Below, one piece after another: positions 21,539 to 34,616 of a stretch of DNA of 64,000 bases. Both the position numbers and the translations under genes were made by a program. Where the stretch lies: contig NZ_AP026738.1 of assembly GCF_002157685.2 (NCBI RefSeq), positions 2,852,001 to 2,916,000 of the forward strand. The letters run 5' to 3'. Position 1 is the stretch's first letter; each line of letters opens with the position of its first letter. The notes under the pieces are model-generated. The model was not told where the DNA came from and did not search any database. It saw nothing but the letters and a program-made list of their open reading frames with translations. Origin of the DNA: Comamonas thiooxydans (GTDB lineage: Bacteria > Pseudomonadota > Gammaproteobacteria > Burkholderiales > Burkholderiaceae_C).

Positions 21539-21565
21539 TCCCCCTTGTTGAAGGGGGAACTTTTC
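21539..21565 (+). terminator. Intrinsic terminator closing the pilus operon
   Basis: TCCCCCTT / AAGGGGGA with a GTTG loop (21539-21558), then ACTTTT. It sits between the convergent last pilus gene and the CAP-domain gene and may serve both. Confidence 0.85.
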
Positions 21566-21572
21566 ATCTAAA

Positions 21573-22619
21573 CTAGCTCTGATTACCTGTTGTGAATCGG
21601 ATTGCTTTTCTAAAGCTCTTGCCATCCGATGATCCGTCAACGGACACGTTGTAGGCAGTGTTCGGCTTTAACGGCTGATTGGGGATCACAAATGCTTGAT
21701 CCAGTGTCAGCATCTTGTGCACATCATCTGACGCGTTAAAGATCTTAGTATCAACCAGAGCACCAGATGCTACATCTGTCATGCTTGCAGAAGTCACAGT
21801 GATCTCACCTCCATTGCCTGAGGTGAGGATGACAGGATGCCCCATCGGAGACACATTGAAGTCACGATTTGGGTAAGGGTTCGGTGCTTCTGACGTAAAG
21901 ATTGGTGACAGGTCTGTGATTCCATCGCAAGGGAACGATCGAATCTCACCACCGCCATACACCGGGGAACTGGAGCCGGAAGGAGTACCAAAATTGACTA
22001 CTGCTGCCGAATAGAAAACCGTTTTCCCTGGGATGGAGGTCAGATTGGAGGACATCGAATATCCCACACCCATTTCGTTCCATTCGCTAACCGCCCCTGC
22101 CAGATGATAGACGGTCGCAAACAGCCCTCGAATATAGGTTCGACCAGCCGGGTTAACCGGCGCCTCAATCCCTGAGTTACTCGTACCTGCAAACAAGGAC
22201 CCACTGTCACCACCGCCGGCAATCTCACCCAAGACGCTCGGCTGGTATCCCGCAGCTTTCGCACGCGCCAAAAGATCAGACCCAGTGAATCCTGGGTTGG
22301 TACTAATTTGATTATGTCCCATCGTCTTATTTGCTTGCAAATAACCGGCGTGCCCCTGGGCAGAAATATCCAGCAAGGAGTTTTGCTTGATGGAACTGAA
22401 GCCGCATGTCGTGCGGTTCCTGTTGATAATGTCGAAGATTTGCGCACGATTCACATCCGAATAATTGCTGGAAGGAATCTCCGTTGGGTAGTTTGCTTTA
22501 GGAGTTTCCGGGATCGGCTTGGCTTCAGAAGGAGTGCTACCACTATCACCACCACCACCACCGCATGCAGCGAGTGCACAGGCAATTGCGACAAGGGAAA
22601 ATGTGCTAGAAATCTTCAT
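21573..22619 (-). CDS. CAP-domain lipoprotein
   Basis: 348 residues. A signal peptide with lipobox (IACALAACG) is followed by a Gly run. A CAP/SCP-like domain at about residues 50-210 contains HAGYLQANKTMGHNQ and the later AVSEWNEMGVGYS, the paired His/Glu regions of the fold. A C-terminal part (about residues 255-345) looks like an immunoglobulin-like domain (PNTAYNVSVDG). CAP proteins are secreted; bacterial functions are poorly defined. ATG 22619 has AGAGG upstream. It is transcribed toward the pilus operon and separates it from the next element block, so it may be a later insertion. Confidence 0.78.
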   Translation of the reverse strand: MKISSTFSLVAIACALAACGGGGGDSGSTPSEAKPIPETPKANYPTEIPSSNYSDVNRAQIFDIINRNRTTCGFSSIKQNSLLDISAQGHAGYLQANKTMGHNQISTNPGFTGSDLLARAKAAGYQPSVLGEIAGGGDSGSLFAGTSNSGIEAPVNPAGRTYIRGLFATVYHLAGAVSEWNEMGVGYSMSSNLTSIPGKTVFYSAAVVNFGTPSGSSSPVYGGGEIRSFPCDGITDLSPIFTSEAPNPYPNRDFNVSPMGHPVILTSGNGGEITVTSASMTDVASGALVDTKIFNASDDVHKMLTLDQAFVIPNQPLKPNTAYNVSVDGSSDGKSFRKAIRFTTGNQS

Positions 22620-22872
22620 ATGGAACCTCTGTTTCAAATATGGAAGCCGCACTCGATGTATCAAGTAATCGAGTGCTAAGAACTTATGGGAATCTTGGAA
22701 GAGATGCGACAGTCTGTATGGACTGTGCTTGGTAACGATATGGCGTTATTTCATTGGTACTCCGCGTGGGACATATCTTGTGGGCTTCTCACAAGGGGTG
22801 ACGCGAAGATTTCCAACGAAGCCTTTTGTAACTGTGCGTGACAATTGTATGTTTGTCAAGTGACTCCAAAAT
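22620..22872. other. Intergenic region upstream of the CAP lipoprotein
   Basis: No gene is apparent. It holds the probable promoter of the leftward CAP gene. A small dyad CTTGTG / CACAAG lies near 22,770-22,795. Confidence 0.5.
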
Positions 22873-22909
22873 AAAAAAAATGGCCACAAGCTGTGAAAAC
22901 AGCTTGTGG
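22873..22909 (-). terminator. Intrinsic terminator of the helicase gene
   Basis: Perfect 11-bp inverted repeat CCACAAGCTGT / ACAGCTTGTGG with a 4-base loop (22884-22909), followed on the minus strand by CCA and a run of eight T. It lies 11 bp beyond the helicase stop codon. Confidence 0.92.
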
Positions 22910-22919
22910 TCAAAATGGG

Positions 22920-25313
22920 CTACATCGTCAAAAGGTCTCTCGCGAGAGCCATCTCAATGCTTTCGCCCTCGTTATCGTTGAGAACGTCCAGTCCACTTTC
23001 GGGCATATCGCCAGAGGTGGACTGCGATACTGCGATTTTCTTGGCCATGAGTCGCAGGCATTCCATTTGTGAAGTGCCGGCGTAGCCAAGGAAGATCACG
23101 CGAACATCGTGCTTCTGACCAATGCGCCAGGAGCGCCGGGCAGCCTGAAGCATCGTGTAGACGTTGAATCCCGATTGCATGAAAACAATCGTAGGAAACT
23201 CCAGCAGATCCAAGCCAGTCTTCACCAGCTCGGGGTTGGTGATAAGCACATCGATGCCCCGCTCTACCTGGTCGGCTACCCAGTCTTCACGCTTGGCCGC
23301 ATCCACGCTGGCGCGCAGCACAGCTACCTTGAACCCCCTGGCTTCGAGCAGCATGCGCAACCGGGCCGTGGTGTCGCGGGTGCCTGAGTAGATTGAATAG
23401 ACCAGAACCTTGCGGCCGAGGGCTTTCTCGTCCATGCAGAGCTGAATGAGTTTGGCCTCTTTCGGAGTGCATTCAACATCATCGAACAGAGCCGGCTGCA
23501 TGTGCAGCAGCTCCTTGCTTCTAGGATGCCTCACCGTTTCCGAACGAAAGCAGCATTCTGGCCAAGCAAGCAGCACGTTCATGACCACCCCCAACAGCGT
23601 GCTGTCTTTCATGGCCAAGGCCAGCTTCAGGATCTGCACCAATTTCCTCGACATATCGGCGTATGCCTCAGCTTGGTCATCGCGCATTTGCACGTCAACA
23701 AAGGACTCGTCATAGGCCGGCAGCACCTTCTGCCCAATGTCCCGCAGCTTTAGGAATACCGTAATTGGCAGCACATAGCGCAAGATACCCACGGGGCCGA
23801 ACCCTGGAGCCTTGCTTGTACGCACAGTCACGCCTTTGCCCTTGGCCGTGCGGTGGGAAGTCGTTGCGGTCTCTTTGTAGATGTCCTTGAGCACCCCATG
23901 CACGCGCATGAAACCCATGGTTGCGGCTGCCATGGAGCCGGTCTTGGATGGCTTGAAGCCGTCCTCGATCAGCACCTTGGGATTGACGCGCCAGAGCAGG
24001 TGGAAAAGATCATCCGCGTAGCCGCCCATAAGCGTGCCCGTCAGCAACAGCACCTTTTCGCACTGGCTGGCCAACACGCCCATTGCTTGGCCCTGGGCCG
24101 AGCCCTCGTTCTTGTACTCGTGTCCTTCATCGACCACCAGCAAACCAAAATAGTTGGTCGGCAGATAGCGCTTGATGAACTCGGTGGGCTGATATCCCCC
24201 CTGCCCGATTGAAAACTCGAACGTGGCCAGGCTGCGCTCCATGCGCTTCGCCTGCTTGTCGCTGAATACCAGCTCCCCGTTCTCGTCCATCAAGTTCAAG
24301 AACTCGTAGACGTTGTCCTCCAGCATCGCAGCTAGGGTGTTCTCCCCAAACTTGCCGAGCAGCCGTTTGGCAGAAACCGGGCCGATGGTTGGCATCTGCT
24401 GTAGTGCGTTCAGCACCAGGTCGGACATGGAGTCCATGGGCCGCCCATTGCGAATGAGCGTCCACAGCGTCGAGTTGCAGTGTTCGCACTTTCGCCGGCG
24501 GTCACTGAGGATCTGCTTGGCCAAGGGCACGGACATGGGCAAGGTCTCGTCGTCATTGCCCTTCGATTCGAGCGGCCGCATGCAGCAAGGGCAGCATGCA
24601 GCCACGAAACGCTGGCCGCCAACGAGGATGGTGCGCTCGATGAAGGCCGGACGCCAATGAAACCCCATACGCATCCGCACACGGCCAAGCACGAAGAACT
24701 CCGGCTGGCTTGTTGTAATGCCCAAGCGGGCACGCATCTGCAGTAACTTGCGCAGCGTGTCCGGGCCATTCAAGATCCAGACCCGAGCGCCGGGTACCGT
24801 GTCAAGAATCTCGCGCCGCCACTTGTAGACAAGGTGCGGAGGTGAGATCACAAGCGTGCGCGGATTGCGTCGCTGCAGCTGCTGCAGCAGCACCGACACG
24901 CAGATGGCCATCATGGTCTTGCCCGTGCCCATCTCCGCGTTCAGGACAGCAGCTGGCTCGCCTCGATCAGCCAGAAGCTTCACGATGGCCTGAACCGCTT
25001 CGGATTGCTCTTTGAATGGCTTGCGCTTTAGATGGTCTAGGATCTGCTGGCGGGCCTGCCAGGCCTCGGACAGCTGATCGCGCTGCGGTAGATAGACAGG
25101 CGGGTTCTGTGACCGAACCTGATCGAGCAGGCCTTGGCCAAACTCGCGGATGAAATCTCCAAGGGGCAGGGTTTCATCAATCACTTCGGCCAGAAAACCT
25201 GCGCCCTCGATCGCGCCGAGTTCGTCAGCGACTTCCTGTACCGCCGGGGCGGCCTCTGCCAAAGTAGTAGATGCCACTTCCGCAGCGGTCTCAGCAATTG
25301 CCAAATCGTTCAT
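22920..25313 (-). CDS. SNF2/DEAD-like ATP-dependent helicase of the element backbone
   Basis: 797 residues of superfamily 2. Motif I is AEMGTGKT (about residue 130), Ia is VISPPHLVYKWRRE, motif II is VDEGHEYKN, motif III is LLTGT, and the second RecA domain ends with LQAARRSWRIGQ, the SNF2 motif VI. Between motifs Ia and II an insertion carries CCPCC and CEHC, probably a zinc ribbon. Related long helicases are frequent in PFGI-1/SPI-7-type integrative elements. The start was placed at ATG 25313; an upstream frame has no basis. The leader contains a terminator hairpin about 20 bases before the start, suggesting attenuation. Confidence 0.82.
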   Translation of the reverse strand: MNDLAIAETAAEVASTTLAEAAPAVQEVADELGAIEGAGFLAEVIDETLPLGDFIREFGQGLLDQVRSQNPPVYLPQRDQLSEAWQARQQILDHLKRKPFKEQSEAVQAIVKLLADRGEPAAVLNAEMGTGKTMMAICVSVLLQQLQRRNPRTLVISPPHLVYKWRREILDTVPGARVWILNGPDTLRKLLQMRARLGITTSQPEFFVLGRVRMRMGFHWRPAFIERTILVGGQRFVAACCPCCMRPLESKGNDDETLPMSVPLAKQILSDRRRKCEHCNSTLWTLIRNGRPMDSMSDLVLNALQQMPTIGPVSAKRLLGKFGENTLAAMLEDNVYEFLNLMDENGELVFSDKQAKRMERSLATFEFSIGQGGYQPTEFIKRYLPTNYFGLLVVDEGHEYKNEGSAQGQAMGVLASQCEKVLLLTGTLMGGYADDLFHLLWRVNPKVLIEDGFKPSKTGSMAAATMGFMRVHGVLKDIYKETATTSHRTAKGKGVTVRTSKAPGFGPVGILRYVLPITVFLKLRDIGQKVLPAYDESFVDVQMRDDQAEAYADMSRKLVQILKLALAMKDSTLLGVVMNVLLAWPECCFRSETVRHPRSKELLHMQPALFDDVECTPKEAKLIQLCMDEKALGRKVLVYSIYSGTRDTTARLRMLLEARGFKVAVLRASVDAAKREDWVADQVERGIDVLITNPELVKTGLDLLEFPTIVFMQSGFNVYTMLQAARRSWRIGQKHDVRVIFLGYAGTSQMECLRLMAKKIAVSQSTSGDMPESGLDVLNDNEGESIEMALARDLLTM

Positions 25314-25323
25314 AGTTTGATCC

Positions 25324-25373
25324 AAAAAAAATAAGCGCACACCCCACAAAGGAGTGCGCGCTCAACGGTTAGA
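25324..25373 (-). promoter_or_regulatory. Terminator-type attenuator in the helicase leader
   Basis: A 12-bp stem (25334-25345 with 25351-25362, allowing G-U pairs) is followed on the minus strand by ATTTTTTTT, ending only about 10 bases before the helicase start. A CTAACCG element precedes it, a variant of the TCAACCC leader signature. The previous gene already has its own hairpin at 25389-25408, so this one is extra. Confidence 0.7.
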
Positions 25374-25383
25374 TGAATGAGGG

Positions 25384-25408
25384 TAAGAAAGGCCTCTGGC
25401 GAGGCCTT
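25384..25408 (-). terminator. Terminator-like hairpin after the 198-residue gene
   Basis: Perfect AAGGCCTC / GAGGCCTT with a 4-base loop (25389-25408), followed by TTCTTA on the minus strand. It lies 8 bp past the upstream gene's stop codon. Confidence 0.7.
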
Positions 25409-25415
25409 GACGGAG

Positions 25416-26012
25416 TTAAGGAAGGAGAACGCGGTTGCGTACGCCCTCGCTCACATGCCGAATGAAGTGATCAGAAATACTCACACGCATTGCGCGAAGA
25501 TTTCCGATCCGCGGATAGAGGCCCCCCCCGAGCTCGTGGACAGCGCCCTTCTCTCCACACCAGGCAATCAAGGGTGCTTGCCAGTGATCGAGCAGCGCAA
25601 TGGGAGCCAAGGTTTTCACCAGGGCCCACACCTTCTCCTCGATGCCGGCGTCGACGTTGGACACGATCCAGCCAATGCGGTTGGGCTTGTCGATCTCCTG
25701 TAAGCGTTTGTCGTAGACGAACAGATGGTTCAAAGATCCAAAGAGGTTCTGACGCGGCAGACGGCCGGTGAACTTTCCCAGGCGCTCCGCAGATCCAACC
25801 TGGACATGGTTTCGCGTTCCTTCAGGGCTCACCAACGTGAAATCCGTGATTCCGTGCTCAGTCCTGCCCAGCTCCATAGCCGCGATGAACTGCATGGCAG
25901 AAGCATCGCGCCCATAGAACGAGAGAAACATGAGCTCGCCCTCATCGTTGCGCAGGCAAGCGTCGGCCCATAGATCCGCGAAACCCTCTATACGGTGAAG
26001 CGCTCTTTGCAT
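25416..26012 (-). CDS. Conserved-type hypothetical protein of the ICE block
   Basis: 198 residues, soluble, with no signal or membrane segment and a mixed alpha/beta pattern (LMFLSFYGRDASAMQF, LNHLFVYDKRLQEID). The family was not recognised. Start: ATG 26012 is six bases after GGAG, whereas the upstream in-frame ATG 26024 overlaps that ribosome binding site; 26012 is preferred. The GGAG sits inside a 7-bp hairpin (26017-26034), so translation may be structure-controlled. It lies between the 83-residue protein gene and the helicase in a uniformly leftward block. Confidence 0.65.
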   Translation of the reverse strand: MQRALHRIEGFADLWADACLRNDEGELMFLSFYGRDASAMQFIAAMELGRTEHGITDFTLVSPEGTRNHVQVGSAERLGKFTGRLPRQNLFGSLNHLFVYDKRLQEIDKPNRIGWIVSNVDAGIEEKVWALVKTLAPIALLDHWQAPLIAWCGEKGAVHELGGGLYPRIGNLRAMRVSISDHFIRHVSEGVRNRVLLP

Positions 26013-26065
26013 GAAATGCTCCATTTATGGAGCAGCCCACAAGGGGCGTGCCCCATGTGGGTTGA
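26013..26065 (-). promoter_or_regulatory. Structured leader (TCAACCC type) with sequestered ribosome binding site
   Basis: On the minus strand TCAACCC (26059-26065) opens stem 1: CCCACA-GGGG / CCCC-TGTGGG with one mismatch (26036-26061). Stem 2 follows: TGCTCCA / TGGAGCA (26017-26034). Stem 2 contains the GGAG of the downstream gene. Confidence 0.65.
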
Positions 26066-26072
26066 TGAAAGA

Positions 26073-26324
26073 CTACGGATTCGGTATCCAGAGCCAGGCG
26101 GCGACGTAGGTACCGTCTTCCGCCGGCGCAACCAGCGGCAAGGGATCGATTACGCATTGGTCATCGGCGTGGATCTCCCTGGCACGGGCGATTGCATCGG
26201 CGCACTCAGCGCGATTCAGATCCTGGTTGTTGAGAAGCCTGCCTAGCTGTGTGACAGCACCGGCAAGGTCGCCCGACTCCCAGGAGTCAACGACATCCCG
26301 CGCTGTTTCCTCCAGCTCATGCAT
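26073..26324 (-). CDS. Small hypothetical protein (83 aa)
   Basis: Acidic, soluble, mostly helical (MHELEETARDVVDSWE; REIHADDQCVIDPLPLV). No family was recognised. It overlaps the end of the preceding 115-residue gene by 8 bp, so it is probably translationally coupled to it; no strong ribosome binding site of its own was seen. It belongs to the leftward ICE block. Confidence 0.6.
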   Translation of the reverse strand: MHELEETARDVVDSWESGDLAGAVTQLGRLLNNQDLNRAECADAIARAREIHADDQCVIDPLPLVAPAEDGTYVAAWLWIPNP

Positions 26325-26664
26325 GGGCAGCCGCCTTTCGTTTTTCCAAAGCGTCGTAGTGCATCTCGACCTGCAGTTTGAGGTCCTCGATCTGCGTCAA
26401 CGCTTGCGTATGCTGTTCGCGGACAACCTTCTCAGTCACACGCTTAGGCTTTGAAGCCACGAGCGTCTTGCTGAAATCGCCATCGCCGCCGAAGCCCATG
26501 ACAAAGCGCTTGAAACCTCCCTCTACCAATGACACAGAGGCCGATGTGACGAGGGAGCTATTCAACTTACGTGTTGAGACGGTGAGCACACGCCGGTCGC
26601 CGAGATCAATCTCGGTGTTCCCACGGTGACCATCACGGATGTTGTTAGAAAAAGATGTATTCAT
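26317..26664 (-). CDS. Hypothetical protein (115 aa)
   Basis: Soluble. The N-terminal half has a beta-rich pattern (EIDLGDRRVLTVSTRKLNSS), and a C-terminal helix, possibly coiled coil, spans about residues 80-112 (HTQALTQIEDLKLQVEMHYD). No family was recognised. ATG 26664 follows CCAGGAGCGATCC, a good ribosome binding site, and is preceded by a leader with the recurring TTCAACC-hairpin pattern. Confidence 0.65.
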   Translation of the reverse strand: MNTSFSNNIRDGHRGNTEIDLGDRRVLTVSTRKLNSSLVTSASVSLVEGGFKRFVMGFGGDGDFSKTLVASKPKRVTEKVVREQHTQALTQIEDLKLQVEMHYDALEKRKAAAHA

Positions 26665-26733
26665 GGATCGCTCCTGGTTGAAGTGGATAGAGCGAGCCCC
26701 TCCCCTGCGGGGAAGGCCCGCACGGGTGGTTGA
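26665..26733 (-). promoter_or_regulatory. Structured leader (TCAACC type) of the 115-aa gene
   Basis: On the minus strand TTCAACC (complement of 26728-26733) is followed by CCCGTGCGGG and CCCCGCAGGGG hairpins and then AGGAG before ATG. An AGGTC-GAGA-GACCT hairpin followed by TTTCTT lies just upstream. Confidence 0.55.
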
Positions 26734-26886
26734 AGAAATGCCAAGGTCTCTCGACCTGGTGCGCTTTCATGGCTCAGCGCGCCTTAAAACCGTTTCTGAT
26801 AGGTCAAACGGTTTTCCGCAGCTCACCCTACAGGTGGGCTGGGGAAAACCGGCTGCAGCCGGTTCTCGTGGGTTTAATGGGGCGTT
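26734..26886 (-). terminator. Two hairpins in the gap after the 102-aa gene
   Basis: 26847-26864 is a perfect 18-bp palindrome (AACCGGCTGCAGCCGGTT) followed on the minus strand by TTCC, a likely terminator. 26786-26815 is a perfect 10-bp inverted repeat (AAAACCGTTT / AAACGGTTTT). No gene is apparent here. Confidence 0.6.
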
Positions 26887-27195
26887 TTACGAACCGTCAC
26901 TGGTGCATGGCTGGCTGGAGGAACCAAGCAGGCCAAGCGCCAGTGAGAGATCGAGTGCAACCAGATTGCGAAACGTCCGGTCCGATTCCGTCATGCGCTC
27001 CCCGAGGTGAAGCATGACGTTCTCAAGACTTGCAGATGCATCACACGCCTTGTTGAGCGCATCCAGGATCTGGGGGATCTTGGCGGGCAGCTCGGCGATT
27101 GCGGTGAGCATGGGCTCGTCTTGCATGGTCAGCCCCTGCAGATGGAGGCTGAGGATGTGTTCAAGCAGCTGGACGGTATTTATCGAGCTCACCAT
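26887..27195 (-). CDS. Hypothetical protein (102 aa)
   Basis: Soluble and mainly helical (LLEHILSLHLQGLTMQ; IPQILDALNKACDASASLEN). No family was recognised. The ATG overlaps the stop codon of the upstream plasmid-related protein gene (TGATG), so the two are translationally coupled. A palindromic terminator follows. Confidence 0.62.
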   Translation of the reverse strand: MVSSINTVQLLEHILSLHLQGLTMQDEPMLTAIAELPAKIPQILDALNKACDASASLENVMLHLGERMTESDRTFRNLVALDLSLALGLLGSSSQPCTSDGS

Positions 27196-27500
27196 CAATA
27201 TTCCGAAGGCAGCAAAATGGTGGTGACCGCCCAATCTGCATCCGTTATGACCCAGACCTTCTTATCTCCTATCAAGTAGGAAGACATGAGACGGCTTCTG
27301 TCCAATAGCGCCCGTTGATTCAATGACTTATCTGACTCGTCCAAGTCCCCCCAATCTCCGCACACATGCCTAGACAGCAGGTCGTATGGATTGAGAGAAA
27401 GACGACGAAGTAGATCGTCGGCTCCAACTGTGGCCACACAGCGGCCCAACTGAAAAAGTGGAATTGTTGCCGTAGTAGCTGCTTGTAAATGTGTTTGCAT
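27195..27500 (-). CDS. Plasmid/ICE-related conserved protein, paralogue 1
   Basis: 101 residues. The pattern PLFQLGRCVATVGADDLL, then RHVCGDWGDL, then KVWVITDADWAVTTILLPSEY is the signature of a small conserved protein often annotated 'plasmid related protein' in integrative elements; its biochemical role is unknown. A second copy follows upstream (27595-27939), sharing GRCVAT, RH(V/I)CGD and ADW(A/S)VT. The start is ATG 27500 with only GAG as ribosome binding site. The leader has the TCAACCC-hairpin pattern. Confidence 0.75.
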   Translation of the reverse strand: MQTHLQAATTATIPLFQLGRCVATVGADDLLRRLSLNPYDLLSRHVCGDWGDLDESDKSLNQRALLDRSRLMSSYLIGDKKVWVITDADWAVTTILLPSEY

Positions 27501-27564
27501 GGTGGATCTCGTTTGGTAAATCGGGTACCACCGGCCCTAGGGGGCTGGTGTCCCCAAGGGTTGA
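27501..27564 (-). promoter_or_regulatory. Structured leader (TCAACCC type) of paralogue 1
   Basis: On the minus strand TCAACCC (complement of 27558-27564) is followed by TTGGGGACAC and a CACC-A-GCCC / GGGC-C-GGTG stem. The segment TGGGGACAC is shared with the leader of paralogue 2. Confidence 0.58.
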
Positions 27565-27594
27565 AAAGATGTGCGGCGTGAATTCGATATAGAA

Positions 27595-27939
27595 CTACGC
27601 AGCGCGCGCTTCAGCGCGCCATTCGGATGGAAGCATCAGTTTTGTTACCGACCAGTCAGCGCTTGTCACGACCCATACATACTCGCTGTTGACGATGAAT
27701 GCAGATAGTCGCTGGCCACGCGCTTCTTCCAAGTCGCGCGTAAGCATGACCAACTTGGTGTTGGCCAGCTCGCCTGGATCGCCACAGATGTGCCGCTGCA
27801 GCAGCTCGTGGGGATTGATGGTCCCCTGGCAAATTAGGTTGTCCAGACCCAGCGTTGCTACGCATCGGCCCGGTCGAAACAGCGGTGTGTCATAGCGCTG
27901 CGATGGTTGTGCTGGCTTCACAGCATTTCTCAAAGTCAT
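27595..27939 (-). CDS. Plasmid/ICE-related conserved protein, paralogue 2
   Basis: 114 residues, homologous along its length to the next gene: PLFRPGRCVATLGLDNL, RHICGDPGEL, VWVVTSADWSVTKLMLPSEW. The start is ambiguous. ATG 27939 is directly adjacent to GGAG; a TTG at 27933 has ideal six-base spacing from the same GGAG, so initiation may be at TTG. Divergence between the paralogues is highest in the middle (after the CGD motif), which hints at different binding partners. Confidence 0.72.
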   Translation of the reverse strand: MTLRNAVKPAQPSQRYDTPLFRPGRCVATLGLDNLICQGTINPHELLQRHICGDPGELANTKLVMLTRDLEEARGQRLSAFIVNSEYVWVVTSADWSVTKLMLPSEWRAEARAA

Positions 27940-28020
27940 CTCCAATCAAGTGAATGAACGAGGACGACCTTCCCTGGGAAAGTGTCCCCAGGGGGTTCTG
28001 GTGCGCTGGCCGAGGCCAGC
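27940..28020 (-). promoter_or_regulatory. Structured leader of paralogue 2 and hairpin after the methyltransferase gene
   Basis: GCTGGCC / GGCCAGC (28005-28020) follows the methyltransferase stop codon. Then AACCC (complement of 27993-27997) opens a perfect 7-bp stem CCCTGGG / CCCAGGG (27972-27978 with 27987-27993), followed by GTCCTC. Confidence 0.58.
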
Positions 28021-28036
28021 AGTGGTTACAGAATGG

Positions 28037-29164
28037 CTATGCGATGTTGACGATGTGGCCCAGCCGGTGATCGGGGGTGAACTCAATGGCATTGATGACG
28101 GGGACGAATCGGTCCAACATCACCGTGGTCTGCGAGGCTTGACCCTTCTCGTCAAAGTCAACGGACACTTTGCGCTCCTTGCGTTTGTAGGTATCCCCCT
28201 TTATCAGGAGAGTTCTGCCGCCGGCGCCGTGGATCATTCCGACCACCTGGCCAGCCGCAAGTGCAAGCGCAAGGTGCCATGGAGTCAGATCGCGCAACGG
28301 CGGTCGACAAGCGCCGCCGACTTGGCTGAACTGAGAGGAAAGCCCACTCCACAGGAGACTGGATTCAAACTTGGCCAGCTCGTCGCCGAGCTGCTCGGCA
28401 TCGATCTGCACAGCATGGAAGTCGAATTCCTGATCAGCCTGCAGGGCAGGAATGACATATGGCTCCAACTCCCAGGAGTCTGGAATGACAGGGGCGCCCT
28501 CCTCCGAGGCCTGGGCCTCTATCAGTGGCTGCAGGGCCGCTTTGGTGGCATGAGTTGCTCGGCATCGCTTGCCAATCACAATGCATTGTCGAAACTGCTG
28601 CACTGGTGCCATGAAAACCTGCAGATCCTCGAAGTTGCGCACCAGGTAGCTGCGTATCTCGTCGTCGAGCGCGTAGTGCGGAATGATGTAGACCAGCACA
28701 CCGCCGTAGGCGAGGTAAGGCACGGTTTTACGCAGAAAGGTTCGCTCCAGGCGCTCGGCCTTGTCAGGCTCAGCCAACAGCGAACGCTGGGCTGACTGAT
28801 CTGCAACGCCGAAGCCATATGGAGGATTTAGAAACAGCAGGCCCATGCTTCTCGGCTTGAGCACCACATCGTGCACGTCCGAATGAATCACACGGTCAAG
28901 GATTCGCTTCGCGTGGCGCGCTCTGTCGCGGTCGAGCTCAATGCCGAAGGCCTCGGCACCACCTGAGTGGCCACGATCGACGGTAAGAAGCTGCCGTACA
29001 TCGGCGAGCGCGCTGCCCTCGCCGCAGCAAGGGTCAAACATGCGAATGCCACCCTTCTCGGGCATCTGCAGCAAGTTTGAGATCCGGCGTATGGACTCCT
29101 CGTCCGTGGGGTAGTAGCCGTTTTTGACATAGTTGTGCGCCAGGCGCGAAAACATTAGGGCCAA
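28037..29164 (-). CDS. SAM-dependent DNA methyltransferase-like protein (DUF6094 type)
   Basis: 375 residues. An AdoMet-binding region FDPCCGEGSALADV (about residue 45) is followed by the catalytic motif NPPYGFG (about residue 113), typical of N6-adenine or N4-cytosine methyltransferases. The C-terminal half (about residues 200-375) is less conserved and may be a recognition domain. DUF6094-type proteins are common in PFGI-1/SPI-7-like elements, where they may modify element DNA. Start: a TTG at 29164 has GGAG six bases upstream, while the first ATG (29155) is 15 bases away, so a TTG start is preferred. A terminator hairpin lies just before the ribosome binding site. Confidence 0.8.
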   Translation of the reverse strand: MALMFSRLAHNYVKNGYYPTDEESIRRISNLLQMPEKGGIRMFDPCCGEGSALADVRQLLTVDRGHSGGAEAFGIELDRDRARHAKRILDRVIHSDVHDVVLKPRSMGLLFLNPPYGFGVADQSAQRSLLAEPDKAERLERTFLRKTVPYLAYGGVLVYIIPHYALDDEIRSYLVRNFEDLQVFMAPVQQFRQCIVIGKRCRATHATKAALQPLIEAQASEEGAPVIPDSWELEPYVIPALQADQEFDFHAVQIDAEQLGDELAKFESSLLWSGLSSQFSQVGGACRPPLRDLTPWHLALALAAGQVVGMIHGAGGRTLLIKGDTYKRKERKVSVDFDEKGQASQTTVMLDRFVPVINAIEFTPDHRLGHIVNIA

Positions 29165-29173
29165 GGGCAGCTC

Positions 29174-29213
29174 CAGAAATAGAAAAGCCAGTCTCCTTAT
29201 GGAGAACTGGCTT
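29174..29213 (-). promoter_or_regulatory. Terminator/attenuator hairpin before the methyltransferase gene
   Basis: AAGCCAG(T)TCTCC / GGAGACTGGCTT with an ATAA loop (29185-29213), then TTTTCTATTT on the minus strand. It ends within about 10 bases of the GGAG of the downstream gene and follows a TTTAACC element, so it may work both as terminator of the previous gene and as attenuator. Confidence 0.7.
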
Positions 29214-29241
29214 GGTTAAAGAGGTGGTACTTCAGTACCGC

Positions 29242-29802
29242 TTAGAACGGGATCTCGTCGGGATCAAGGCCCACGCCGGTAAGTTCTTGCACCCTTCCGT
29301 AGATGTCGAGGCGCGGCAATGCGCGTTTCAAAGCATCTCGATAGAGAGGGTTAGAACGTGCATGCACGGCGATAACGGCCGCAGCCGACTGCTGAGCAGG
29401 CAAGTCTTGAATGCGGCGAAAGGCCACGGTATCGGCAAGCGCCATCACTTCTTCTACGTCTGGCGACTGCAGCTCGTCAATCTCAGCACGCAGCTCTAGG
29501 CGACGCATGATATGAAAGAGCGCCTCATGATCGAACAGCGTCTGCACGGTCGAGAGCATGTTGCCCCCTTCGTGCATCCATATGCCATTGACACATCTGA
29601 TCTGCTCCACGGTACGGTCCATGAGACGACACTGGAATGCGGTTGAGCTCAGCTCAGTTGCCTTCGCAATAGCGTCCTTCGCGATATAGAGCCGGTAGGT
29701 GACCTCCATACGCGTGTCGTAGACCTCATACCGATGTGCGGGCTCATTCTGAGTCCACAGGAGAAGCTCTTTGAACGCAGCTTCATTTGCACAAATGGAC
29801 AT
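29242..29802 (-). CDS. Hypothetical protein (186 aa) of the ICE block
   Basis: Soluble, without signal peptide; mixed pattern with RYEVYDTRMEVTYRLYIA near the N terminus and a helical C-terminal half (QDLPAQQSAAAVIAVHARS). No family was recognised. ATG 29802 is preceded by GGAGGACTCT, a strong ribosome binding site that excludes the upstream frame. It lies between the methyltransferase and the 77-residue gene. Confidence 0.65.
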   Translation of the reverse strand: MSICANEAAFKELLLWTQNEPAHRYEVYDTRMEVTYRLYIAKDAIAKATELSSTAFQCRLMDRTVEQIRCVNGIWMHEGGNMLSTVQTLFDHEALFHIMRRLELRAEIDELQSPDVEEVMALADTVAFRRIQDLPAQQSAAAVIAVHARSNPLYRDALKRALPRLDIYGRVQELTGVGLDPDEIPF

Positions 29803-29862
29803 AGAGTCCTCCAAACTAGGCTCAGGGAACTCCAGCCCAATGGGACCGAAGCCCCATAGGGA
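29803..29862 (-). promoter_or_regulatory. Structured leader of the 186-aa gene
   Basis: TTTCTTTCCC is followed by a 7-bp stem ATGGGGC-TTCG-GTCCCAT (UUCG-type tetraloop, one G-U pair), then CTGGAG and TTCCC before the GGAGG ribosome binding site. The AACCC signature is degenerate here. Confidence 0.5.
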
Positions 29863-29899
29863 AAGAAAATGCCAGCCCTGATTTCTCAGGGACTGGCAT
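29861..29899 (-). terminator. Intrinsic terminator after the 77-aa gene
   Basis: Long stem ATGCCAG(T)CCCTGA / TCAGGGCTGGCAT, with one bulged base and a GAAA loop (29869-29899), followed by TTTTCTTT on the minus strand. Confidence 0.88.
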
Positions 29900-29903
29900 G
29901 GGT

Positions 29904-30137
29904 TTAAAGGTGATCCTTCTGAGACCAGTGACCCTTCGCCCAGGCTTTTTCAGCCTTGGCTTGGGTATTCCAAGTCTCCAGAGATTCACGGGTGAACGGG
30001 CCACGCTCGGTACAAGTACCGAGATAGAACCCGCCTCCACTACGGAGAACCTGCATCGGCAGAACCTCGCCACATTTAGCAGCGAGAACGCCGAAAGTCA
30101 CACCAGTAGTTGCTTGCGATTGAACGATTTGCGTCAT
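29904..30137 (-). CDS. Small hypothetical protein (77 aa)
   Basis: Basic soluble protein (VTFGVLAAKCGEVLPMQVL; RESLETWNTQAKAEKAW). No family was recognised. The true start is ATG 30137, with AGGAG eight bases upstream; the long upstream frame runs through the leader and is not coding. It is flanked by its own TCAACCC leader and terminator, a self-contained unit. Confidence 0.65.
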   Translation of the reverse strand: MTQIVQSQATTGVTFGVLAAKCGEVLPMQVLRSGGGFYLGTCTERGPFTRESLETWNTQAKAEKAWAKGHWSQKDHL

Positions 30138-30206
30138 GTCTTTTCTCCTGTTGATGGGGGAAAAGGACGAGCGCGCCCGAATGGGACACGGCCCATCCGG
30201 GGTTGA
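30138..30206 (-). promoter_or_regulatory. Structured leader (TCAACCC type) of the 77-aa gene
   Basis: TCAACCC (complement of 30200-30206) is followed by GGATGGG / CCCATTC (30179-30198, one G-U pair) and a GGGC...GTCC stem, then AGGAG before the start. Confidence 0.6.
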
Positions 30207-30345
30207 GAGAGGTTGAAAACGTGAGACACTTTCCAGATGACTGAAAAGCGTCCCCAGTTGAGAGTGATAACAGGGACTCCTCGCCATGAGGAGCCTCTGG
30301 ACCTTGTGCATCTTTTCGAGGAAATGGATGCGCGAGATGCGCTAC

Positions 30346-30636
30346 CTATTCTTCGAACGAGGATGCGCCAGCAGACGGCGGCGGCAAATTCCGCTCTTTC
30401 AATAGTTGAACCAAGCTCGACGGCATCCCGTCAAGCAGTTCCGGCTTTTGATAGCAAGAACTGATCAGCGTCACGATCGAACAAACCTGCCCCGGTGCAA
30501 CCTGCTCGCGCAGTCGCATCAGTGCTTCGTAGTCCTGCTCGGTACACATCGCCACGAACTTGCGATAGGCGTCATGCATTTGCATGCGCTGGTCCTCAGA
30601 CCAAGCAATGAGCTTCAGACTGGAAGGTGTGCCCAT
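30346..30636 (-). CDS. Small hypothetical protein (96 aa)
   Basis: Helical soluble protein (DQRMQMHDAYRKFVAMCTEQ; LREQVAPGQVCSIVTLISS). No family was recognised. The start is ATG 30636 with GGAG seven bases before; a longer frame runs into the hairpin leader. It is separated from the previous gene by the hairpin-rich non-coding stretch 30713-31082. Confidence 0.62.
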   Translation of the reverse strand: MGTPSSLKLIAWSEDQRMQMHDAYRKFVAMCTEQDYEALMRLREQVAPGQVCSIVTLISSCYQKPELLDGMPSSLVQLLKERNLPPPSAGASSFEE

Positions 30637-30700
30637 GGAGACTCCTCCCGATAAGGAGCGGGCACGCCAGCCCTTGCGGACAGTTGTGCCCGCGAGGGTT
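30637..30700 (-). promoter_or_regulatory. Structured leader (AACCC type) of the 96-aa gene
   Basis: AACCC (complement of 30696-30700) is followed by a perfect 8-bp stem GCGGGCAC / GTGCCCGC (30658-30665 with 30686-30693) enclosing a small GTCC/GGGC stem. Then CTCC (complement of 30655-30658) can pair with the GGAG of the ribosome binding site (complement of 30642-30645). Confidence 0.62.
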
Positions 30701-30712
30701 ATAGAAAAAATG

Positions 30713-31082
30713 ATGCCCAGGGCATTGCTGCCTGCACTTTTCAAGGGCTCAAAGTGCGCGAAACCATATTGATGGTCAGATGGTTTCCCAGAAGATCCGC
30801 AAGTGCTGCAGACACTCTGGGAACCCATCGGGCTCCCGGCATTGCCAGATTACAGTACCCAGGCCGCCTATAGGCTGGCCGGCTGTCACAACGGGCTCAG
30901 ACAGCCAAGGAACGGCGCGGTCACGAGGCCGGCTTGGCTTTCACCGGACACGCACTATCGCAAAGCCACTGCGCATCAGGTCGCAGCCACCCTAATTCCA
31001 CTTTCCCGCTGCCTGGCTACCAGGCAGTAGGCTGATCCATAGACGCGCGATCACGCATATGGATCAGCCCGCTGATGCGGGC
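30713..31082 (-). ncRNA. Hairpin-rich non-coding stretch (candidate structured RNA or DNA origin)
   Basis: In this 370-bp gene-free region I count at least eight inverted repeats: 30713-30725, 30734-30757, 30760-30787, 30785-30823, 30866-30875, 30881-30906, 31009-31027 and 31031-31068, plus 31068-31081. Arms of 7-11 bp are perfect in most. Two overlap and exclude each other: GAAACCAT with ATGGTTTC, and TTCCCAGA with TCTGGGAA. The first hairpin, followed by CATTTTTT on the minus strand, is a terminator. Whether the rest is an RNA or a DNA structure (oriT, single-strand origin) is undecided. Confidence 0.45.
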
Positions 31083-31090
31083 GATGGGCT

Positions 31091-31765
31091 TTACTTTGGA
31101 CGCCAAGTTTGATCTTGGAATCCGAATTGATAGCTGCCCAGTTGGCCGATGGCCTTGGTCTGCTCCCGCAACATCGAGCGATCGACAGTGGGATCGAGCT
31201 TCACTGGTTGAAGACTGCGGATCTGCGCCCAGTATTCCCGAAGCACTTCAGGAAGTTCAGGTGTGTCGACCTGACCTACGTCGTCGACTGATGAAGCTTG
31301 TGCAGTTGCTTGGGTTGTTTGCCCAGTGTTCCGCTTTATTCTCTCAATGCGCTCGCGCATCTGGTCACCCAACCGTGTGGGCCCTTCTGTCTTCGACTGG
31401 GTACGCGGCGCGGGCAACGGAGCTGGCCACACAGGCGTTTGAGACGCCAGGGATGGCGATTCAAGTAGTGGGTCGGGCTCAGCCAATTCGGTCTCGACGG
31501 GAGCATCGGAAGCGCTATCGAGCTGCATGTCATGCAGCGTTGCTCTCATCTCCGTCACGGCTTTTCCGTACGCAATGTACTGATGCAGGAAGATTCTGTT
31601 GATCCACACAGTACCGTGATACTCGCCTTCTGCGAACTGATCCAGGAATGAATCCTTGACCTTGAGTTCGCAGCACTCGTGGAATAGCTCCCCGACACAG
31701 AAATCGCCGTAGCGGCCACCTCTAATTTGTTTGACACGCAACGTCACGTTTTCGAGCTTTATCAA
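31091..31765 (-). CDS. DUF3275-family ICE protein
   Basis: 224 residues. The N-terminal domain (RGGRYGDFCVGELFHECCEL, KDSFLDQFAEGEYHGTVWI, then ATLHDM) matches DUF3275, a family found almost only in SPI-7/PFGI-1-type integrative elements. A Pro-rich linker (about residues 95-125) and a charged C-terminal part follow. Function is unknown. Start: TTG 31765, with TGGAG seven bases upstream; there is no suitable ATG at the domain edge. Its leader carries a CACCC-hairpin pattern behind a strong terminator. Confidence 0.78.
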   Translation of the reverse strand: MIKLENVTLRVKQIRGGRYGDFCVGELFHECCELKVKDSFLDQFAEGEYHGTVWINRIFLHQYIAYGKAVTEMRATLHDMQLDSASDAPVETELAEPDPLLESPSLASQTPVWPAPLPAPRTQSKTEGPTRLGDQMRERIERIKRNTGQTTQATAQASSVDDVGQVDTPELPEVLREYWAQIRSLQPVKLDPTVDRSMLREQTKAIGQLGSYQFGFQDQTWRPK

Positions 31766-31826
31766 GCTTTTGCTCCATCAGATTGCGGAGCACCAGTCCA
31801 ACGCGGGGCCAGGCCCGCGTGGGTGA
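31766..31826 (-). promoter_or_regulatory. Structured leader of the DUF3275 gene
   Basis: TTTCACCC (complement of 31821-31826 region) is followed by an ACGCGGGCC / GGCCCCGCGT stem, then GGTGCTCC. A later GGAG, the ribosome binding site, could pair with that CTCC. Confidence 0.55.
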
Positions 31827-31862
31827 AAGAAAAACACTCCACACGCATGCGCCTGTGGAGTG
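31827..31862 (-). terminator. Intrinsic terminator upstream of the DUF3275 leader
   Basis: Perfect 9-bp stem CACTCCACA / TGTGGAGTG (31835-31862) with a 10-base loop, followed by TTTTTCTTT on the minus strand. It lies nearly 300 bp after the nearest upstream gene end, so it may end an independent non-coding transcript. Confidence 0.85.
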
Positions 31863-32109
31863 CTGTTTGGAATTACCAAAGGACTTCCGATCCTTTGGGA
31901 ATGAGACAGAACACACCGGTTCGAGGTGTGCGTCAACGAGTGAAGTGTGTACGGTCTATAAGTGCCTCGGCCCGTAGGGCGCGCAAGTTTCAGAGGCTCA
32001 CCTGCTTCGCTAGTTGCCTAGCATCCGGTTTGGTTTGAGTGATACCGGCAAACACTTGGAAAGGCTGAGAGCATAGCGCAATTCCAGGGTATTCGGGCCA
32101 CAAATCACG
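31863..32109 (-). ncRNA. Gene-free stretch between two terminator-like hairpins (possible small RNA)
   Basis: No credible protein gene was seen on either strand. It contains CCAAAGGA / TCCTTTGG (31876-31898) and CACACC / GGTGTG (about 31912-31930) hairpins close to the 31835-31862 terminator. That layout could be the 3' part of a small RNA transcribed leftward. No promoter could be assigned. Confidence 0.35.
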
Positions 32110-32135
32110 CCCTGAATTGCTTTCGCAATTCAGGG
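32110..32135 (-). terminator. Strong hairpin after the STY4534 gene
   Basis: Perfect 11-bp inverted repeat CCCTGAATTGC / GCAATTCAGGG with a TTTC/GAAA loop, 20 bp past the stop codon. No T-run follows on either strand, so termination is not assured. Confidence 0.55.
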
Positions 32136-32153
32136 GTGGGTGGCTACTGCTGA

Positions 32154-32885
32154 TTACGCGTAATCATGTTCGCGTCGATCAGCATATCCGCCTTGCCGTT
32201 GCTGGCCAGACGTACTGCCGTACCCGCCTGAGCGAGCTGGCTGGCGCGTAGGCGCCGAAGGTGTACGGCCCTGCGGAGCAGGAGCACGATACTGAGGTTG
32301 CTGACGTGGAGCTTGAGCTGGTACACGTTCCTGCGATGCAGGTCCATGTGGTTGCTCATCTTGGCCACCCTGTTCAGAGTTGCCAGCATGTTCCTCGTAG
32401 AACGCCTCATCGCCATGCGGTTGACTGCCGACATGAGCAGCCTCCACATTCGACTCGGCACGTTGATACACGAGCTCGCCTTCAACCCTCACGGAGTTGA
32501 CAAGTATCAGACGGCCCTTGATGAGGCCGGCTAGTTCCTTCTGCCCCGTGGGGCGTCCACCTTGATCTCGCACATCTCGCTCGTAAGAGTGAGCGTAGAG
32601 GTCAGCAATACGGAAAGAGATCAGCACCTTGCGGCGCTCATCAACTTCCTTTTGCAGACTTTCGATGAGCTCGATGGCCTCGGCAGAGGACACGCGCAAA
32701 TCGAAGTAGGTGTAGTCGGGAGAATCCGTTGCCCCACGCAGCGCACTGATAGCGCAAGCGAGGAACGGTTCAGCCTTGCGACCACGACCAGTGGGCGTAA
32801 CCCAACGAACACGGGACAAATATCCAATGCCGTTAGCGTGCAGGTTGAAAAACTCACGTTGAGCAGGTGCTTGTTGTTGCTGCAT
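32154..32885 (-). CDS. STY4534-family (DUF3577) ICE protein
   Basis: 243 residues. The N-terminal domain (FFNLHANGIGYLSRVRWVTP, PFLACAISALRGATDSPDYT, KVLISFRIADLY, then GRLILVNSVRVEGELVYQR) matches the STY4534/DUF3577 family of SPI-7/PFGI-1-type elements, proposed to act in element replication. The C terminus (about residues 165-243) is Gln/Pro/Gly-rich and probably disordered, like single-strand DNA-binding protein tails. ATG 32885 has GGAG five bases upstream. It is the most upstream gene of the leftward block in this window. Confidence 0.8.
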   Translation of the reverse strand: MQQQQAPAQREFFNLHANGIGYLSRVRWVTPTGRGRKAEPFLACAISALRGATDSPDYTYFDLRVSSAEAIELIESLQKEVDERRKVLISFRIADLYAHSYERDVRDQGGRPTGQKELAGLIKGRLILVNSVRVEGELVYQRAESNVEAAHVGSQPHGDEAFYEEHAGNSEQGGQDEQPHGPASQERVPAQAPRQQPQYRAPAPQGRTPSAPTRQPARSGGYGSTSGQQRQGGYADRREHDYA

Positions 32886-32971
32886 GATGACTCCAAATTT
32901 CCAAAGTTTGGACGGAGCACAGCCACACCTGACCGCAAGGTCTGGATGGGGCGATGATCCCCATCCGGGTT
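32886..32971 (-). promoter_or_regulatory. Structured leader (AACCC type) of the STY4534 gene
   Basis: GCAACCC (complement of 32967-32971) is followed by a perfect 8-bp stem GGATGGGG / CCCCATCC (32944-32966), a small GACC-TTGC-GGTC stem, GTGCTCC and a CCAAACTTTGG dyad before GGAG. Confidence 0.65.
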
Positions 32972-33281
32972 GCGAGGTAATGCTTTGACCAATCCTTGGG
33001 GGATCGGCTAACGACTCTCAAAAGCTCAGTCGTCTATGTGTGCCCTAGGGCTTTCACAGGCTTGAGAATAAACGGTGGATTTCAACTCGTCAAACAGTGT
33101 TGACAGTTGGCGCCCCACCGGCTTTAGAACCAGTCCGTGTTCCGGTTGAAATGACCACTTGCGCAGGTTACGCGTGACTAGGCTATTGATCTTGACCGGA
33201 TGCGAGCGGCTGTGAGCAGTCCCCAAGGGCATCCCTATAGATGACTACTATAGGTTGATCTGATCAGCCTATAGTACCGCG
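32972..33281. other. Junction between ICE block and catabolic operon, with a 29-bp dyad
   Basis: No convincing gene. A 68-codon minus-strand frame (33026-33232) without ribosome binding site or recognised family is not called. At 33247-33275 lies a near-perfect inverted repeat, ACTATAGGTTGATC / GATCAGCCTATAGT (13 of 14 pairs, 1-base centre). It sits 6 bp beyond the MmgE/PrpD stop codon and has no T-run. It may be an operator or a recombination junction. Confidence 0.5.
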
Positions 33282-34616
33282 TCAATGGATATCGAACAGC
33301 CTGGCTGCACGTTCCAGCGTCCACAGATGAGCAAGCAGGTTCTTGGCTCCCGCAGCACCGATTACCGGCTCCGACAGTTCCAGGAACTTGCTTGTTAGTT
33401 CTGCATCGGACAGCGGCAACTCCGGGTCACCTTTGCGGTTGGGCTGCAGATGCACTAGCTTAGCACCACTATGGGTGGTGATCTCAACGCGCGCCGACCG
33501 CTGGCCCGGGAACGCAGCGTCGATCACGGGGTCCACGCGCGGTTCGATGCGGGTCATCAGCTCGCGCACACGCGCATCCTCCAGTTGTGCAGGCTCGTAG
33601 GCAGCCAAGCGTACGCTCCCACGCGTCAGCGCCGTAGCGACGACGTAACGAAGGCTGAAGCGGGCTTCGTTGGCGCTGGCCGGTTTCTCGTAACAGGCTA
33701 TGTCCAGTGCAGGCCTGTAGGTGTCCACACGAACGTGGGCAATGTCCTCTGCATGCAGGCCGTGCTTCTCACGTAGCTCCAATGCGCCGTCAATGGCAGC
33801 GAAAGTGTGGCCGCAGCCGATATGGTTCTTGAAGGTCAGTCGCGTGATGTGAAAGTCGCTCCCAAGCGTGGCGCCGACCTCTGACCAGTCCGGACCGTTG
33901 CTCATGGCTTGACCCAGGCCTGACTTTCCGTCCAGCACGTCCAGCGAACCCGTCACGTCGCGCGCTGCCATCTGCGCAGCCAATAATCCCGCCTCGGCTG
34001 CACGACCCGCATGCAATGGTTTGGACATGGAATCCATGCGAAAGGCCTGCTGTAGTCCCGCCGCGAATGTTGCGGCCGTGGCCAAGGCATGCGCGAAAGG
34101 CAGCGCACCCAAGCCCAACACGCCAGCGGAAGCTGCGGCCGCGCCGAAGGTGCCAACCGTACCTGTGTTGTGCCAAAAGCGGTAGTGCGGACGTCCCATC
34201 ACCACACCAATGCGGGTTGAGACCTCGTAGCCAAGCACCAGCGCACGCAGGAAGTCCAGACCACTGACACCGGCGTCCTGGCTGGCCGCCAGGGCCGCGG
34301 CGATGGTCGCTGCGCCGGGATGGTACATGGCGTCGCGGAAGCTGTCGTCCACCTCAGCTGCATGGGCTGCTGTGCCGTTGTACAGTGCGGCAGCGCGAGC
34401 CGTGGCGGTGCGGCCATTGCCCAGTCGAGCGCGCCCATGGTCCAGATCCTCGGCCAAAACCTGTTCGAGCTGAGCAAGAGGGGCGGCCGCCAGACCGGGG
34501 AACAGGGAGGCGTACCAGTCGATTACGGCACGTTTGGCGTGGTGAACTACCTCGTCGGGCAAACGGGTGCTGTGGAATTGCTCGGCATACTGGCCGAAGA
34601 CTTCTGTGGCGTGCAT
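33282..34616 (-). CDS. MmgE/PrpD-family dehydratase-like protein
   Basis: 444 residues of the MmgE/PrpD superfamily (2-methylcitrate dehydratase, cis-aconitate decarboxylase and relatives). Visible conserved patches are ATARAAALYNGTAAHAAEVD near residue 75, HNTGTVGTFGAAAASA near residue 165 and KNHIGCGHTFAAIDG near residue 270. The last contains the usual catalytic-region His and Lys. It is cytoplasmic and is the last gene of the leftward acyl-CoA operon. ATG 34616 has AAGGA nine bases upstream. The substrate is unknown; a 3-hydroxy or tricarboxylic acid intermediate is plausible from family knowledge. Confidence 0.85.
   Translation of the reverse strand: MHATEVFGQYAEQFHSTRLPDEVVHHAKRAVIDWYASLFPGLAAAPLAQLEQVLAEDLDHGRARLGNGRTATARAAALYNGTAAHAAEVDDSFRDAMYHPGAATIAAALAASQDAGVSGLDFLRALVLGYEVSTRIGVVMGRPHYRFWHNTGTVGTFGAAAASAGVLGLGALPFAHALATAATFAAGLQQAFRMDSMSKPLHAGRAAEAGLLAAQMAARDVTGSLDVLDGKSGLGQAMSNGPDWSEVGATLGSDFHITRLTFKNHIGCGHTFAAIDGALELREKHGLHAEDIAHVRVDTYRPALDIACYEKPASANEARFSLRYVVATALTRGSVRLAAYEPAQLEDARVRELMTRIEPRVDPVIDAAFPGQRSARVEITTHSGAKLVHLQPNRKGDPELPLSDAELTSKFLELSEPVIGAAGAKNLLAHLWTLERAARLFDIH

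Follow-up and report, generated by a model that had tools for sequence, protein, structure and literature searches.

Candidate translational RNA switches repeated gene by gene in conjugative elements

Control of translation by an anti-Shine-Dalgarno (anti-SD) strand and a strand that competes for it is a known principle. In translational riboswitch platforms, one strand hides the Shine-Dalgarno (SD) sequence and a second, the anti-anti-SD, captures the hiding strand. IncI-type repZ is controlled by a pseudoknot, in which the strand that sequesters the SD is bound by the loop of a hairpin further upstream; this control also involves a leader peptide and an antisense RNA, and acts on one gene per plasmid. 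The leaders described here precede ten genes in a 64-kb window of the Comamonas thiooxydans genome (the whole stretch of DNA analysed; G000:C1:2852001-2916000 of a 5.9-Mb genome) and recur in conjugative elements of other bacteria. They resemble repZ in their pairing and differ from it in those other features. Unlike riboswitch platforms, they are about 60-90 nt long, contain no recognisable ligand-binding domain and are repeated gene after gene. Outside the helices, conservation in the 5' part is limited to a U tract and CAACCC, and the ligand domain of a metabolite riboswitch was not seen there.

By analogy, the nearest functional precedent is found in the gonococcal genetic island, where traH and parA each have an RNA switch. 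PMC8716806 summarises the study of traH by Ramsey et al. (2015) and describes a parA leader closed by two stem-loops, the disruption of which gives about 10-fold more LacZ in E. coli. The transcript level is unchanged in gonococci, and the E. coli assay operates without gonococcal factors (PMC8716806). The gonococcal switches are two leaders of one island, whereas the present leaders are repeated along elements. In addition, no alternative fold was found there for parA, whereas a helix termed P2 competes here with two others, P1 and P3.

The leaders are also akin to the MS2 maturation gene, hok and aapA3, in which translation is timed by a nascent structure unlike that of the finished RNA (PMC6733600). 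Those systems are single genes. Transient hairpins of aapA3 close the SD, whereas the early structure proposed here would leave it open, as in MS2. Neither the leaders themselves nor their gene-by-gene repetition in conjugative elements, their chain of SD mimics and their breadth of occurrence were found described in the open-licence PMC literature searched (titles and beginnings of abstracts). A 'DUF3577 RNA motif' has reportedly been named by Weinberg et al. (2017).

Three competing helices and their covariation

Ten gene starts on the minus strand of the window, in a block at 22920-32885, are preceded by leaders of a common plan. From 5' to 3', a leader comprises a U-rich tract, (U)CAA, CCC1, a few bases, GGG1 with a loop, CCC2, a few bases, GGG2, a linker, the anti-SD strand, often a U-rich loop, the SD strand, and the start codon. 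The pairing strands can be designated a (CCC1), b (GGG1 and loop), b' (CCC2), a' (GGG2), c (anti-SD) and d (SD region). P1 joins CCC1-GGG1 to CCC2-GGG2, P3 joins the anti-SD strand to the SD, and P2 joins the 5' arm and loop of P1 to the anti-SD strand. P2 shares the anti-SD strand with P3 and the b strand with P1. A first-pass annotation of this DNA had proposed one leader architecture at no fewer than nine gene starts, and its marks lie at the positions it gave. It had also recognised a GTCC/CTCC element able to pair with the SD. That pairing stands as P3, which covaries; what had been missed is P2, in which the same element pairs instead with the first hairpin, at its 5' arm and loop.

The pattern AACC N2-9 GGG N3-10 CCC N1-7 GG occurs five times on the minus strand of 25314-33000 and not at all on the plus strand; 300 shuffles gave a mean of 0.08 and a maximum of 2. 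In 41 named loci (up to 10 kb each side) collected via a DUF3577 alignment, a related pattern has 110 occurrences in the orientation of the DUF3577 gene and 14 in the opposite one. RNAalifold returned no structure from a MAFFT alignment of 58 leaders because loop lengths vary, and was replaced by a six-sequence seed chosen for alignment consistency. A covariance model from six leaders, all of other genomes (R1), yielded 240 matches at an expectation value (E) ≤ 1 in 743 kb (the 41 loci and the window), including seven of the ten window leaders. A second model (R2) was built from 150 of these matches, taken from L025-L065 and from the window, which contributed five leaders, and gave 271 matches at E ≤ 0.1, only three of which lie on the opposite strand. 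E-values of both models are rough. With filters off over 20000-34000, the ten annotated sites are the top ten minus-strand rows of R2 (E 6.2e-11 to 0.22), the weakest being 27934-27993, 25311-25377 and 32883-32978. One plus-strand row (29826-29900, E 0.012) overlaps a leader; further plus-strand rows are weaker, and several weak ones are complements of P1 stems.

Rfam 15 gives no match at gathering score in the window or in seven loci, and the matches found under relaxed limits (E ≤ 10 in 16 kb of the window, E ≤ 5 in three loci) are all weak and fall short of the gathering scores. Leaders are touched by two of them, namely CRISPR-DR35 (E = 1.4) at 29865-29899 and SpR10 (E = 4.8) in L030. Thus, as had been suspected at first reading, no named RNA family of Rfam 15 matches convincingly.

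Selection on the helices was assessed by a swap test, which compares the best pairing of two segments in one leader with that after one segment is exchanged among leaders. Three sets were used: 76 leaders (regular-expression matches with a start codon found, a length limit and at most 80% likeness), 102 leaders (kept from set A5, the best 150 of the 271 matches) and 125 leaders (kept from the 141 rows of set A6, from genomes outside the training set). P2, the alternative helix that excludes the SD helix, scores z = 12.0, 13.1 and 21.1, respectively. Its stem and loop parts score 7.5 and 4.9 in the second set and 6.7 and 12.9 in the third. The SD-covering helix P3 scores 11.3, 18.2 and 22.8, and P1 scores 10.3 in the first set and 19.8 in the third. 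The z values of P1 and P3 gain from the model used to find the leaders; P2 is part of no model. Controls range from -1.9 to 1.2 (four, 76 leaders), from -0.9 to 0.0 (six, 102 leaders) and from -0.4 to 0.9 (six, 125 leaders). Direct likeness of b and its loop to d gives z = 3.1 in the 102 leaders. None of the 141 A6 rows is letter-identical in the training loci, and removal of one near match leaves P2 at 20.9 and P3 at 22.7.

Alignment cells changed on both sides number 507 in A4, compared with 173.7 in shuffled and 31-74 in slid versions, and 488 in A6, compared with 157.6 and 20-50. Two-sided changes are present in 18 of the 20 pairs of A4, only a small excess over the 14.7 of the shuffles, of which 4 in 500 attain it. 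These pair counts for A4 and A6 lean towards structure because the alignments were fitted to structure. In ICEhin1056, the strands can be read by eye as GGGGGATAAC(AC) for b and loop, GTGTTATCCCC for the anti-SD and GGAGAAACAC for the SD strand. Judged from comparative data, P1, P2, and P3 are all under selection, and the leaders sit directly at start codons. The suggestion of the first-pass annotation that structure is selected is borne out, with swap tests far above controls and two-sided changes above those in shuffled and slid versions.

Static SD hairpins that never switch would damp translation or exclude ribosomes of the upstream gene. This explanation agrees with the P3 signal, which is the strongest, and with the prediction that most complete leaders are closed. 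It is nevertheless improbable, as it leaves unexplained the selection on P2, the competitor of both P1 and P3.

Predicted folding and the proposed switch

We propose that every leader acts as an RNA switch of translation and that this switch recurs from gene to gene, and assign this reading a probability of roughly 0.7. In the closed state, P1 (a:a' and b:b') would coexist with P3 (c:d) and the SD would be hidden. In the open state, P2 (b:c, with b':a' inside) would withdraw the anti-SD strand from the SD and free CAACCC. Because the ribosome fixes the SD, a chain of alternative pairings would make c, b, b', a', and a tend to CUCC, GGGG, CCCC, GGGG, and CCC, respectively, and the constant GGG/CCC marks would thus be explicable without a protein reading them. 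Along an mRNA of several genes, such switches would adjust translation for each gene separately. A translational function has the best support, as the helices come together at the SD and keep register with the start codon.

In ensemble folding without the SD, P2 outranks P1 in 67 of 102 leaders of one set and 84 of 124 of the other; with the SD, this holds in just 10 of 102 and 16 of 124. In complete leaders, the SD core is paired to c with a mean probability of 0.73-0.74 and is unpaired with a mean probability of 0.13-0.14. Forced energies were computed for 99 of 102 and 121 of 127 leaders. Without the SD, the median E(P2)-E(P1) is -2.5 and -3.1 kcal/mol; with it, E(P2)-E(P1+P3) is +4.3 and +4.2, although P2 keeps the lower energy in 28 of 99 and 39 of 121. 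In this comparison, the mean unpaired probability of the SD core is 0.08-0.09 in the free ensemble and 0.00 with P1+P3 forced. Relative to the free ensemble, forcing P2 opens the SD further in 96 of 99 and 115 of 121 leaders. When the last 21 nt are removed, six window leaders become P2-like (that of the DUF3577 gene and those at 30636, 30137, 29802, 27500, and 26664), and four of the six adopt P1+P3 when complete. The complete leader is predicted to be mostly closed, with P2 favoured while the SD is unavailable.

Several results weigh against the switch. A full switch, defined as P2 > 0.5 without the SD and P3 > 0.5 with it, is predicted for only about half of the leaders (51 of 102; 56 of 124), and the forced-energy comparison leans to P2 because all model P1 pairs were forced. 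Forced P2 opens the SD only partly: the mean unpaired probability of the SD core is 0.42, the value exceeds 0.5 in just 32 of 99 and 45 of 121 leaders, and in minimum-free-energy folds with P2 forced, two or more of the first four SD bases are paired elsewhere in 85 of 99. Within the window, the leaders at 30634-30707 and 30135-30211 retain P2 at full length and two others (25311 and 32883) are atypical. In the gonococcal precedent, weakening of parA stem-loop 1 lowered expression, contrary to the simplest prediction (PMC8716806).

The switch could be triggered by the nascent RNA, by a ribosome that occupies the SD, or by a factor acting on the U tract and CAACCC. According to the folding models, either of the first two would suffice. 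A factor-free, self-latching switch, which we put forward only tentatively and consider doubtful, would use b as a mimic of the SD arm to capture the anti-SD strand when the SD is untranscribed or held by a ribosome. The site would be open on nascent or busy mRNA and would shut when idle.

Alternatively, the leaders may constitute an RNA regulon, in which a trans-acting factor (a protein of the element or host, or a small RNA) reads the U tract and CAACCC and flips the leaders of an element together. This reading departs from the proposed switch solely in what sets it off, and is possible although rather unlikely. Consistent with such a factor, CAACCC is freed in P2 and several unpaired positions before the first C of CCC are conserved in the 102 leaders (A at -2/-1, 0.77/0.78; C at -3, 0.80; T at -8, 0.73). 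However, the sequence before CCC is variable in pKLC102 and ICEhin1056, and no candidate factor was found. A small RNA of the element carrying GGGTTGA was rejected, as this motif is not in excess on the leader strand of the 41 loci (31 versus 38 expected); GGGTTGATGAA occurs 0 times and a looser form once on that strand, in a search that reached at most 10 kb each side. DUF3577 was also rejected as a universal regulator. It is not always present, and was not found in G167, whose 320-kb contig has 12 matches at E ≤ 1e-3.

The genes are likely read from one long transcript, as the first-pass annotation had supposed. By eye, 15 of 34 leaders in four annotated elements start 2-41 nt past the previous annotated stop, leaving little or no promoter space, and conservation before the first C of CCC does not exceed 0.06 bits at -50 to -17 and 0.10 bits at -16 to -11. 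A canonical promoter before each leader was rejected, since no sequence signal was found upstream. The same 15 leaders speak against the terminator-plus-leader arrangement that had been taken as the general unit. The tail of a terminator was likewise rejected as the source of the U tract, as some leaders have an upstream hairpin and others begin just past a stop codon.

Long transcripts with breakpoints, read by the authors as possible processing, are known from stationary-phase expression of the ICEclc core genes (PMC2892462). If these transcripts carry the leaders, they would suit a processing or stabilising module, in which cleavage within the U tract, perhaps by RNase E, leaves P1 as a protective hairpin at the new 5' end, after three unpaired bases. 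The succession of U tract, three unpaired bases and GC hairpin is also as such a module would have it. We regard this explanation as quite unlikely, because P2 and P3 are left unexplained and the U tract is weak in pKLC102.

Control of transcription is less probable still. Either P2 and the U-rich loop would terminate transcription intrinsically and P1 would act as the antiterminator, or a long transcript would have its antitermination sites in the leaders. P2 is long and GC-rich, a U run follows it in some leaders, and T-tailed hairpins lie upstream of some. However, a U run directly after the alternative hairpin, the hallmark of an attenuator, is found in a minority of leaders (TTTT within 8 nt after c in just 55 of 150 and 40 of 136). 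P3 and the start-codon register are unexplained, and nothing is conserved upstream of the U tract. Processive antitermination, as first proposed for this block, is not supported. The covarying helices come together around the SD and start codon, pointing to translation.

Occurrence in other genomes and in the window

The four annotated elements contain 34 matches, tallied by eye and exclusive of L104 of the window's own genome. Twenty-eight end exactly at an annotated start codon, four at an in-frame alternative start 24-54 nt away, and two at no annotated gene. pKLC102 (positions 1-100,000 of 103,532 scanned) has nine matches, all within 40,831-48,751, and ICEhin1056 (1-40,000 of 59,393 scanned) has four within 12,336-14,303. 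No match precedes secretion, parA, dnaB or topoisomerase genes in the scanned parts. Leaders may mark small unannotated genes. Two leaders, at L111:42561-42631 and L110:36295-36364, have no annotated gene on their strand, and an open frame of about 50 codons follows a pKLC102 leader that lacks an annotated gene.

R2 matches were found in at least 40 of 369 genomes and 38 of 271 genera of the class (E ≤ 1e-4), in at least 11 of 299 genomes of the phylum, one of them outside the class (E ≤ 1e-4), and in at least 53 of 300 genomes and 36 of 134 genera of the order (E ≤ 1e-3), with up to 16 matches per genome. These counts are lower bounds because few candidates were scored per genome (13-16) and filters were stricter. 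The three surveys draw mostly on sequence outside the training set, share some genomes and all include the window's own; the order survey includes G041, the source of training loci L053 and L055. Of 39 leader-bearing genomes, 18 were found to encode DUF3577. In three genomes in which it was not found (G149, G167, and G379), leaders precede DUF3150, MoxR-like ATPase, CobT-like, RecT, and primase-like genes. Leaders in elements without DUF3577 are seen in loci L120, L122, and L115-L119, and are scattered across the 320-kb contig in G167. Ten TraH loci from one family of the same order, which do not include the gonococcal island itself, have no R2 match at E ≤ 1. In four of these loci (L156-L159), a different two-hairpin design over the start codon is visible by eye upstream of TraH.

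The block of the window encodes DUF3577/STY4534, DUF3275, a DUF6094 methyltransferase, an SNF2/ResIII helicase, and small genes that belong to no Pfam family. The DUF3577 protein (32154-32885, minus strand) is 92% and 90% identical to proteins on C. testosteroni and C. terrae contigs. By eye, it has an SSB-like look, with a folded domain and a tail rich in Gln, Pro, and Gly. Type IV pilus-like genes (PilO, T2SSE, T2SSF) lie at 12558-19069, where a secretin scores below its cut-off.

The DUF3577/STY4534 gene has an atypical leader (32883-32978, minus strand, as are all those below) with a P1 stem GGATGGGG/CCCCATCC, an additional small hairpin and P3 over the SD, without CCC1:GGG2 pairing (R2 E = 0.22 with filters off, and predicted fold). 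The DUF3275 gene (31091-31765) is preceded by a leader at 31763-31832 (R1 E = 0.61 at 31767-31831; R2 E = 4.6e-5). Two small genes follow. That at 30346-30636 has its leader at 30634-30707 (R1 E = 6.5e-7; R2 E = 6.2e-11), with P2 GCGGGCAC/GTGCCCGC as the predicted fold, and that at 29904-30137 has its leader at 30135-30211 (R1 E = 0.07; R2 E = 2.7e-6), with P2 predicted even at full length. The leader at 29800-29867 of the gene at 29242-29802 (R1 E = 0.013; R2 E = 3.1e-8) is predicted to fold as P2 when truncated and as P1+P3 when complete.

The gene at 27595-27939, with a TTG start, has its leader at 27934-28004 (R2 E = 0.037 at 27934-27993), in which P1 and a long P3 extending into the start codon are predicted. 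The leader at 27498-27569 of the gene at 27195-27500 (R1 E = 2.9e-5 at 27498-27570; R2 E = 9.6e-10) is again predicted to change from P2 when truncated to P1+P3 when complete. For the gene at 26317-26664, the leader at 26662-26738 (R1 E = 1.8e-4; R2 E = 4e-10) has CGCTC/GAGCG as P3 and a truncated form that folds as P2. For the gene at 25416-26012, the leader at 26010-26070 (R1 E = 3.7e-4; R2 E = 6.8e-9) has GCTCC/GGAGC as P3 and GGGGCA/TGCTCC as a possible P2. The helicase gene (22920-25313) has the second atypical leader (25311-25377; R2 E = 0.066), a single long hairpin followed by a T run, with a weak P3. Its counterparts in C. testosteroni (L025:12163-12228) and C. terrae (L026:17496-17561) have R2 E = 0.019 and 0.022; R2 scores of these loci and of the window sites are not independent, because training rows came from them. 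No such leader is visible by eye at the genes starting at 29155, 27198, and 26324.

A second repeated module, GGTTTC-(AA)GGCGCG-TTCAACTCTGAAAA-CGCGCC with another hairpin, is seen upstream of some leaders (L030:18587, L030:19443, L031:12763, L033:14200, and L033:17286), with variants in the window before 30707 and 26738. The strict pattern gives five matches on the leader strand and none on the opposite strand, each shortly upstream of a CAACCC leader.

In the window's own genome, R2 gives at least nine matches at E ≤ 10, comprising six in the block and one at 2995056-2995126, all at E ≤ 0.02, and two elsewhere at E > 3; 150 of the 1496 candidates were scored in this search, which did not recover the leader at 30135-30211. 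The leader at G000:C1:2995056-2995126 (L104:11057-11127) lies about 110 kb from the block and precedes a 145-amino-acid gene. A 667-amino-acid open reading frame adjoins it on the same strand and is perhaps a topoisomerase, judging by position in related elements. Metabolic genes (MmgE/PrpD, TctC, and others) lie between the block and this leader, and the element may thus carry a large cargo.

Implications

If the proposed switch is correct, the leaders represent a widespread regulatory RNA that is absent from Rfam 15 and precedes as many as a dozen or so genes in one element. The conjugative elements that carry them are found in Pseudomonas, Haemophilus, Comamonas, Paraburkholderia, and others. 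The leaders mark the start codons of small genes, and the control of a poorly understood block (DUF3577, DUF3275, DUF6094, RadC, and helicase) would become directly testable. The three-strand design with its SD mimic would offer a compact natural model of a co-transcriptional RNA switch. Should the switch also be self-latching, mobile elements would have spread a hysteretic device gene after gene, and an operon would become a row of all-or-none translation gates that needs no host-specific regulator.

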